DNA of 64,000 bases from Luminiphilus sp. (GTDB taxonomy: Bacteria > Pseudomonadota > Gammaproteobacteria > Pseudomonadales > Halieaceae): positions 43,655 through 107,654 of the forward strand of contig JAAXJC010000153.1 in NCBI GenBank assembly GCA_012270045.1, read 5' to 3'. The notes under the pieces are model-generated. The model did no database searches, was not told the origin of the DNA, and was given only the letters and a program-made list of their open reading frames with translations. Below, piece by piece: positions 53,953 through 56,604 of the stretch. The position numbers were made by a program, and so were the translations under genes. Within the stretch, counting starts at the first letter, position 1, and every line of letters starts with the position of its first letter.

Positions 53953-55773
53953 ATGTGTGGCATCGTTGCTGCCGTCGGCCAACGGGATGTGCCCGAAATC
54001 TTGCTGGAGGGCCTGCGGCGCCTGGAGTACCGCGGTTACGACTCGGCGGGTCTGGCGGTAATCGATGGCGCCGGCCAGCTTCGGGTGTGCAAGCGCCAGG
54101 GAAAAGTAGCGGCACTGGAGTCGGCACTGGACAGTGGGCCGATAGCGGGGCGGACCGGTATAGCCCACACCCGCTGGGCCACCCACGGCGCGCCCAGCGA
54201 GATCAACGCCCACCCCCACACCAGCGGCGACCGGATAGCGCTGGTGCACAACGGCATTATTGAAAACCACCAGGAACTGCGGGATGAACTGGAGGCATCC
54301 GGCGTCGTGTTTTCTTCAGAGACCGATACCGAAGTGGTAGTGCACCTCATTGCGGCCGCGCTGGCCGAGGGGGGAGGATTGTTTGAGGCCCTGCAGCAGG
54401 TTGTGCCACGACTACAGGGGGCCTATGCACTGGCCGTGGTCGATGCCGAGGCTCCGGACCGACTGGTCGTGGCCCGGGAGGGCAGCCCCTTGGTATTGGG
54501 AGTTGGTGTGGCCGAGACCTATGCGGGCTCGGATACCCTGGCACTGCGCCCGGTGACCGACCGCTTCGTCTATCTTGAAGAAGGGGACATGGCGGAGCTG
54601 GTGGCAGGAAGCTACCGTATCGTCGACCGCTCAGGTGAGCCGGTGCTTCGGCCCGTCACCCGAATTGAAACAACCCAGGACAGTGGTGACCTGGGTGACT
54701 ATGAGCACTACATGCTCAAGGAAATCCACGAACAGCCAAAATGCCTTGACGATACCCTGGCCATGGATTGGCGCGGTGCCGACTGTTTTGGCGAGCAAAC
54801 CGATGCCCTGCTTGGCAAAGTCGCCGCTGTGCAGATTATTGCCTGTGGCACCAGCTATCACGCCGGTCTGGTGGCCCGCCACTGGATTGAAGCCGAGGCG
54901 GGTCTGCCCTGCCAGGTTGAAGTGGCGTCCGAGTACCGCTATCGGCGCTCGGTCACACTGCCCGGGACGCTGATTGTGTGTATCTCGCAAAGTGGTGAAA
55001 CCGCGGACACCCTGGCGGCCTTAAAACATGCCGGGGGCGACAATGTGGTGGCCCGGCTGGCCCTGTGCAATGTCGATCATTCCGCTATTGTCCGGGCCAG
55101 CGATTTGGCCATTCTTACCCGGGCCGGCGCTGAGATCGGCGTCGCTTCAACCAAAGCCTTTACCACGCAACTTGCGGCTCTGATGCTGTTAACGGGCAAG
55201 CTGGCTGGTATTAAAGGTAGGCGGGGTGTTGATGCCCTTGACCTGGATACCGCCCTCGCCGGTCTGTCCAGGGATGTCAGCAGCGTGTTGGCCATGGAGA
55301 CCGCCATACGGGGCTGGGCCAGGCACTTCGTCAACCGTCACCATGCCCTGTTCCTTGGCCGGGGTATTTTTAACCCGGTGGCGATGGAGGGAGCGTTAAA
55401 ACTCAAGGAGATCTCCTACATCCATGCCGAGGCCTACCCCGCTGGAGAGCTCAAACACGGCCCTCTTGCTTTGGTGGATGCAGATATGCCTGTGGTGGCG
55501 GTGGCGCCAAACGACCAACTGCTGGAAAAGTTGCGCTCAAACCTGGAAGAGGTCAAAGCCCGGGGCGGCGAGTTGTTTGTGTTTGCCGACACCGAAGCGG
55601 GCTTTGAGTCGGAAGAGGGCACCCACGTGTTGTCGATGCCCCATTGCTCCCCGTGGTCGGCACCCATCGTCTATTCCGTGGCACTGCAGCTGCTCGCCTA
55701 CCACGTCGCCTTAGCCAAAGGAACCGACGTGGACAAGCCCAGGAATTTGGCTAAATCCGTTACCGTGGAGTAG
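53953..55773 (+). CDS. glmS: Glutamine-fructose-6-phosphate aminotransferase
   Basis: A 606-residue enzyme that makes glucosamine-6-phosphate. The N-terminal glutaminase starts with the catalytic Cys (MCGIVAAVGQRDV), and HTRWATHGAP is intact. Two SIS domains carry ISQSGETADTL and the C-terminal HGPLALVD and PRNLAKSVTVE. It follows glmU by 3 bases, so the two hexosamine steps are co-expressed. No GlmS ribozyme-like leader is present. Confidence 0.99.
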   Translation: MCGIVAAVGQRDVPEILLEGLRRLEYRGYDSAGLAVIDGAGQLRVCKRQGKVAALESALDSGPIAGRTGIAHTRWATHGAPSEINAHPHTSGDRIALVHNGIIENHQELRDELEASGVVFSSETDTEVVVHLIAAALAEGGGLFEALQQVVPRLQGAYALAVVDAEAPDRLVVAREGSPLVLGVGVAETYAGSDTLALRPVTDRFVYLEEGDMAELVAGSYRIVDRSGEPVLRPVTRIETTQDSGDLGDYEHYMLKEIHEQPKCLDDTLAMDWRGADCFGEQTDALLGKVAAVQIIACGTSYHAGLVARHWIEAEAGLPCQVEVASEYRYRRSVTLPGTLIVCISQSGETADTLAALKHAGGDNVVARLALCNVDHSAIVRASDLAILTRAGAEIGVASTKAFTTQLAALMLLTGKLAGIKGRRGVDALDLDTALAGLSRDVSSVLAMETAIRGWARHFVNRHHALFLGRGIFNPVAMEGALKLKEISYIHAEAYPAGELKHGPLALVDADMPVVAVAPNDQLLEKLRSNLEEVKARGGELFVFADTEAGFESEEGTHVLSMPHCSPWSAPIVYSVALQLLAYHVALAKGTDVDKPRNLAKSVTVE

Positions 55774-55802
55774 CACGGGACAGCAAGTTAGGAGGAGGAA
55801 TC

Positions 55803-55922
55803 ATGGAGGCCTTTGGGATTTTGGGCTTTATTTTTGGGGTGGTTGCCTTTGTGCGAGTTGAAAAACTCACCAAGACCTTAAAGGAAAAAAACATCCTGGA
55901 AGAGGACTACAAGGAAGAGTAG
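55803..55922 (+). CDS. 39-residue membrane peptide with a very strong ribosome site
   Basis: A short frame, too small for usual gene callers. It starts MEAFGILGFIFGVVAFVRV, one hydrophobic helix of about 16 residues, and continues with a highly charged tail (KLTKTLKEKNILEEDYKEE). A near-perfect AGGAGG site lies seven bases upstream of the ATG, 30 bp after the glmS stop. The helix-plus-charged-tail layout resembles small inner-membrane regulators. I have no function for it. Codon use and the ribosome site make it a convincing gene. Confidence 0.75.
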   Translation: MEAFGILGFIFGVVAFVRVEKLTKTLKEKNILEEDYKEE

Positions 55923-55958
55923 GGCGCTGCCCTGATCCGATTCGCAACGGTAAAACAG

Positions 55959-56168
55959 GTGCTTCCAGTGATTTGTATCAAGACAGAAATTCCAGACGAC
56001 CTCTGTGCAATAGATGATGAGCTCAAGGCCATTTACCATTCACGTGATACGGTCTGCGTCTGGGTCTTCAAATCCAGGGAGGACAGAAACCGTTTCATGG
56101 ACGAGACAGTGGGTATGGACAAAGCCCATAGGGAAGCTTACTTCGCACAACACTTTGGTCAGCAATGA
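55959..56168 (+). CDS. Unrecognised 69-residue protein
   Basis: A small soluble protein that I do not recognise. The sequence has an N-terminal strand-like part (ICIKTEIPDD), a segment VCVWVFKSREDRNRFMDE and a charged C-terminus with AHREAYFAQHF. The start is GTG at 55959 or GTG at 55968; neither has a strong ribosome site. It lies 36 bp after the 39-residue peptide gene in the same direction and is convergent with the cysteine-rich peptide gene. The balanced composition suggests it is real. Confidence 0.55.
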   Translation: MLPVICIKTEIPDDLCAIDDELKAIYHSRDTVCVWVFKSREDRNRFMDETVGMDKAHREAYFAQHFGQQ

Positions 56169-56186
56169 ACGCGCTGGCCAGCTGCG

Positions 56187-56321
56187 CTATTCCTTCTCAG
56201 CTTCCTTGCTTTCTGCCTGTTCCTGATGCTCTTTTAGTTTCTCTTGATACTCTTCCTCGGAAAGTGCATGCCAACCAATGCACTTGCCCGTGGGACTCCG
56301 TCCACAGCCACAGTCCGCCAT
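56187..56321 (-). CDS. 44-residue Cys-rich CDGSH-like peptide
   Basis: A short frame starting MADCGCGRSPTGKCIGWHAL, with a charged helical tail rich in Glu and Lys. The order C-x-C-x2-S-x4-C-x-G-x-H closely follows the CDGSH iron-sulfur motif (C-x-C-x2-S-x3-P-x-C-D-G-S-H), but it is one residue shorter and lacks the Asp. It could bind a [2Fe-2S] cluster or zinc. A GGGAG ribosome site lies 7 bases before the ATG. It is convergent with the 69-residue gene. The function is unknown. Confidence 0.7.
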   Translation of the reverse strand: MADCGCGRSPTGKCIGWHALSEEEYQEKLKEHQEQAESKEAEKE

Positions 56322-56604
56322 TATCTGCTCCCATTCACGCTACGTGATCTGATCACCGAAATTAGGCGATTTGCTGTGGACTGGCAATACGTTGACGGCC
56401 ATCCCCGGCCGGTGGCGAGATCTTGAGGTCGTGTTGAACATCATGGCCGGGGGGCGGCTGTTGATCTGAAGCCTGCCAGCAAGGAACATAATAACCCTCT
56501 GATGAACCACCCACCCGGCGCCAACAGCCCGCCTGACTGAGGCGGCAGAGAACAGGGTAAATAGCCCTGCGAAACCCAAACCCCAAGGATTGCGTAGTTA
56601 ACCC

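Follow-up and report, generated by a model that had tools for sequence, protein, structure and literature searches.

A small conserved gene downstream of glmS

The window analyzed here, a stretch of 64,000 nucleotides from Luminiphilus sp., contains at positions 56187-56321 on the minus strand a reading frame that translates to 44 residues, MADCGCGRSPTGKCIGWHALSEEEYQEKLKEHQEQAESKEAEKE, followed by a stop codon. We refer to its product and relatives as CIGWH proteins. The features that we assign to the locus are the following:

56187..56321, minus strand: CIGWH microprotein gene, stop codon included (translation, conserved family, pN/pS 0.079)
56328..56332, minus strand: Shine-Dalgarno-like GGGAG, 7-11 bases 5' of the ATG (upstream sequence)
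56268..56312, minus strand: putative metal-loop motif C4-G-C6-G-R-S-P-T-G-K-C14-I-G-W-H18 (W17 and the ligand positions do not vary among 62 relatives; aligns with CDGSH loops via intermediates)
56205..56258, minus strand: predicted single helix, residues 22-39, the SEEEYQEKLKEHQEQAES region (AlphaFold2 model)

The gene is located downstream of glmS and convergent with it (53953-56321), an arrangement that recurs in a second Luminiphilus (L007) and in a SAR86 genome (L015); the region downstream of glmS is a known insertion hot spot (attTn7). Just past glmS, at 55803-55922, a 39-residue frame has a strong AGGAGGAGG site; its translation shows a charged tail and probably one membrane segment, and only a weak match, to a CCC-motif membrane protein, was obtained for it. 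A perfect inverted repeat, GTGATCAGATCAC, is found at 56344-56356, 23-35 bases 5' of the start codon of the CIGWH gene, and was not found upstream of the relatives checked. No match to a sigma-70 promoter was detected near the gene, and comparison of the relatives gave neither a conserved promoter nor a conserved operator.

The preliminary description of this DNA had proposed a 44-residue peptide with a ribosome site, and this is indeed what is encoded on the minus strand, with GGGAG at -11 to -7 from the ATG. The window, read in all six frames, contains two patterns of the form C-x-C-x6-8-C-x3-H, compared with a mean of 0.27 in shuffled sequences; as chance yields such patterns occasionally, the motif by itself is weak evidence, and conservation is the test. 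Loss of the motif in homologs had been set beforehand as one outcome that would refute the proposal, and the opposite was found: an alignment of 62 diverse relatives revealed the core C-x-C-[GK]-R-S-P-[TN]-G-x-C-x-G-W-H-x-L, with 11 invariant positions (C4, C6, R8, S9, P10, G12, C14, G16, W17, H18, and L20). Most of these relatives were gathered by a script that demanded C-x-C-x-R-S-P-[TN]-G, so that conservation at those positions is partly imposed, while C14, G16, W17, H18, and L20 were not demanded. An alignment of 13 bacterial genes gives a pN/pS of 0.079, with variation at 27 of 28 third codon positions, and 83 of the 92 non-redundant members carry a Shine-Dalgarno-like sequence. The frame is short and the sigma-70 match is missing, as might be expected of an open reading frame that arose by chance and has no product, yet such a frame would not be conserved across phyla and phages or be preceded by ribosome sites, and the substitution pattern has already refuted it; we consider its probability negligible. 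Based on conservation, pN/pS, and the Shine-Dalgarno-like sites, the 44-residue frame is a real gene.

Occurrence in plankton bacteria and uncultured phages

While the preliminary description had looked to other gammaproteobacteria for relatives, the family reaches well beyond them, to Rhodobacteraceae, Verrucomicrobia metagenome-assembled genomes (MAGs), and phages. Scanning 84,980 species genomes yielded 52 loci, among them Luminiphilus, SAR86, and SAR92, the Methylophilales isolates HTCC2181, KB13, and LSUCC0665, the Rhodobacteraceae isolates HIMB11, HTCC2083, and HTCC2255, Verrucomicrobia MAGs in which the neighbors are conserved, and a single contig from an archaeal MAG (L040). Misbinning probably affects the taxon labels of some MAGs, given the near-identical pairs L009/L010, L028/L027, and L039/L038, and those phyla were therefore left uncounted. 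The family occurs patchily and, for the most part, in plankton. Matches were found in 6 of 58 related genomes, all from the genus of the window itself; one of these (G035, L006:1501-1623) is a decayed copy with stops and loss of Cys. In the sampled family of HTCC2181, clear matches were present in 11 of 150 genomes, all of 1.1-1.3 Mb; the order of a SAR86 genome gave 18 of 199, one with stops, and the family of HIMB11 gave 8 of 298. Decay was also seen in Nereida ignava (L057:6001-6132), where a TAG stop replaces the Trp codon, and in a broken second copy in HIMB11 (L228, near 1261). Weak matches in two further genomes (G672 and G648) were rejected, being stretches full of stops.

In addition, 271 relatives were found on phage contigs in IMG/VR. 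Annotated phage records (n = 50,697) contained no recognizable homolog, with only noise at E-values of 8 and above, and neither did plasmid records (n = 72,556). A neighboring protein on one IMG/VR contig is 43-47% identical to proteins of large phages, Phosso and PA5oct among them. Around the phage copies, GTP cyclohydrolase I was encoded in 16 of 48 lineages, a phosphoribosyltransferase in 11, a QueE-like (radical SAM) protein, so assigned from its sequence, in 11, and a HIT protein in 9. On phage contigs L059-L138, these four recur as part of a module of small genes, and a frame reading MSDGGKGSxPRPFSV is found upstream of the CIGWH gene, sometimes in frame with it. Another contig (L066) encodes an iron-sulfur biosynthesis protein at a distance of 2.4 kb. 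Two phage contigs (L061:5004-5192 and L076:420-749) encode fusions of the CIGWH domain with a C-terminal DUF1674 (PF07896, E-value 1e-11 in L061), which we take to cover the succinate dehydrogenase assembly factor SDHAF4.

Four uncultured Caudovirales proteins from BFVD (A0A6J5LU87, A0A6J5KWJ4, A0A6J7WD41, and A0A6J7WI56), deposited without a function, are 45-59% identical to the peptide and have a similar predicted shape according to Foldseek; with E-values of 0.019-0.12, identity counts for more than E-value in this match, and the four apparently belong to the same family. None of the Pfam, NCBIfam, or PHROGs models or PDB entries describes the family: PHROGs gave nothing below an E-value of 0.03, and PDB gave nothing useful by sequence or by fold. 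Literature searches with motif strings, or with CDGSH and bacteriophage, returned no relevant description. The family is small, unnamed, and common to plankton bacteria and uncultured phages.

Relationship to CDGSH proteins

The presumed ligands of the window peptide, C4, C6, C14, and H18, are spaced C-x-C-x7-C-x3-H, against C-x-C-x8-C-x3-H in CDGSH proteins, and an Ile occupies the position of the Asp, in agreement with the earlier remark that the spacing is one residue short and the Asp missing. With CDGSH proteins (PF09360; mitoNEET/CISD1; types 1-7, PMC3174974), the family has in common the order of three Cys and one His, invariant in the alignment, and the turns C-x-C-x2-S and C-x-G-x-H. 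Compared with the CDGSH consensus C-x-C-x2-(S/T)-x3-P-x-C-D-G-(S/T/A)-H (PMC3174974, PMC5859297), the Ser and Gly are retained, while the loop is one residue short and the loop Pro, the Asp, and the small residue before the His, here a Trp, are lost. All three lost residues, with Ser, Thr, or Ala as the small one, are universally conserved in CDGSH domains (PMC3174974). In all CDGSH structures compared in 2011 by Lin et al., the cluster is bound at a dimeric or pseudo-dimeric beta-sandwich, and an N-strand and a lid-proline strand are common to them (PMC3174974). The window peptide has neither the N-strand nor the P-motif strand: only three residues precede C4, and its AlphaFold2 model (mean pLDDT 76, pTM 0.48) consists of a loop and one helix, with no strand. 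As the peptide cannot form the required beta-sandwich, mitoNEET-like spectra cannot be assumed for it. Finally, none of the 62 CIGWH members matched PF09360 at E-values up to 10, leaving them short of its gathering cutoff of 29.5 bits, and the genome of the window encodes no PF09360 protein.

A different picture emerges for ancestry. The same small phage gene occurs in three states, namely a canonical CGCG[RK][ST]xxxPxCDGSH, a CDGSH form with a loop one residue shorter, and CGCGRSPTGKCIGWH, which have N- and C-terminal extensions in common. A pattern scan of viral contigs for CGCG...CDGSH gave 54 instances, 22 with the canonical x8 loop and 32 with x7, a count that includes near-duplicates and a few proteins seemingly unrelated outside the motif; many of the instances carry the extensions of the CIGWH proteins. 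The CIGWH protein L071 and the CDGSH protein L281 are 50% identical over 54 residues, the single-residue gap falling within the loop; between the window peptide and L235, an x7 CDGSH protein, identity is 59% over 37 residues. As the E-values of these two pairs come from single-subject comparisons, we relied on identity, bits, shared tails, and locus. Genomic position is shared once: L109 (CIGWH) and L277 (x8 CDGSH) have their two directly upstream genes in common, the larger of which is 73% identical. Scores against PF09360 are 29-36 bits for x8 proteins and 10-19 bits for x7 proteins, one of which was unmatched, and CIGWH proteins have none. In a bacterium, a weakly matching Methylophilaceae locus (L219) encodes MRVKKNPEDIGRCGCGRQEYCDGSHGLTESEW, in which a literal CDGSH, CGCGRQEYCDGSH, is flanked by an N-terminus of the phage type and by the same turn on the C-terminal side; no relative was found in viral contigs seeded with this protein.

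Because the phage intermediates share flanking protein sequence, and once genomic position, with CIGWH genes, descent of the family from CDGSH proteins is well supported and, judging from these sequences, very probable. The simplest reading of the order would lead from canonical CDGSH over short-loop CDGSH to CIGWH, with the direction inferred. The CDGSH likeness of the preliminary description therefore holds as ancestry, while as domain membership it fails on profile, spacing, residues, and scaffold; on the sequence evidence, the CIGWH family is a derived CDGSH variant and not a member of the domain family as defined.

An origin related to DUF1289 (PF06945; E. coli YdhL), with the CDGSH likeness being convergent, was raised by weak profile matches (7 of 62 members, best E-value 0.01) and dropped once the CDGSH intermediates were found. 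DUF1289, too, is a small domain with cysteines, in which GC-x-R-S and a Trp are followed by a helix, and a profile alignment of GC-x-R-S...W..LS-x-EE scores above 150 column shuffles. However, its four cysteines follow another ligand order, C-x3-C-x7-C-x2-C, and the three Cys and one His of the CIGWH proteins neither show this arrangement nor score above the DUF1289 cutoff of 27 bits. Intermediates toward DUF1289 were not found, whereas those toward CDGSH share tails and locus with the family, which makes this kinship very improbable.

Putative metal site and possible role

The retained features, the 3Cys-1His ligands C4, C6, C14, and H18 and the turns C-x-C-G-R-S and C-x-G-x-H, together with the changed ones, a loop shorter by one residue, Asp replaced by Ile/Val, and the small residue before the His replaced by an invariant Trp, suggest how such a protein might operate. 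The loop would hold a labile [2Fe-2S] cluster, shielded by Trp17 or by a partner in place of the beta-sandwich, and the helix after the loop, together with the Trp-His edge, would dock the microprotein to a partner. Such a small protein could thereby carry clusters or act as a redox adaptor in the iron-sulfur and thiol metabolism of host or phage. We give this overall reading of a CDGSH-derived microprotein about an even chance, and that a CIGWH protein works like a CDGSH protein is likewise plausible, with roughly balanced prospects. The more specific version, a minimal iron-sulfur protein of ~40 residues in which a CDGSH loop minus its beta-sandwich keeps a Trp-shielded [2Fe-2S] cluster and acts as a carrier or as a redox tool during infection, is put forward only tentatively.

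The gene context in bacteria bears on this weakly. In five Rhodobacteraceae loci that belong to one subclade (L020, L036, L041, L043, and L045), a CDGSH-glutamate-synthase-domain protein is encoded within a few kb, corresponding to type 5 of Lin et al. (PMC3174974), and the same loci contain a LysR regulator, YceI, cytochrome b561, DoxX, and GST genes in varying order. A GST gene follows the CIGWH gene in three SAR86 genomes, and in one locus (L024) a DoxX gene precedes it. These neighbors weakly point to redox or thiol metabolism; most bacterial neighborhoods vary, which makes an inference of function from context weak.

The main rival to a [2Fe-2S] cluster is a zinc site. With the same ancestry, the loop may have turned into a knuckle around one zinc (or iron) ion. 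This mononuclear site would act as a structural adaptor, keep the loop packed on the helix, bind protein or nucleic acid, and form no iron-sulfur cluster. The loss of the conserved Asp, the Pro, and the strands of the beta-sandwich, the shortened loop, and the very small size are consistent with this, and three Cys and one His fit zinc as well; CDGSH itself was first annotated as a zinc finger (PMC5859297). Nevertheless, two residues derived from CDGSH, the Ser that follows C-x-C and the Gly preceding the His, are still invariant, and redox-type neighbors are found in several lineages. On balance, we regard the zinc knuckle as a possible but somewhat doubtful outcome.

Under the preferred reading of a CDGSH-derived cluster protein, the ligands were kept, the scaffold was dropped, and stepwise intermediates are at hand, by which the question of the minimal protein for a 3Cys-1His [2Fe-2S] site becomes testable. 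One of the many small genes of uncultured aquatic phages that still lack annotation would also receive its first name in this way, and one may ask whether these phages adjust the iron-sulfur or redox metabolism of their hosts.
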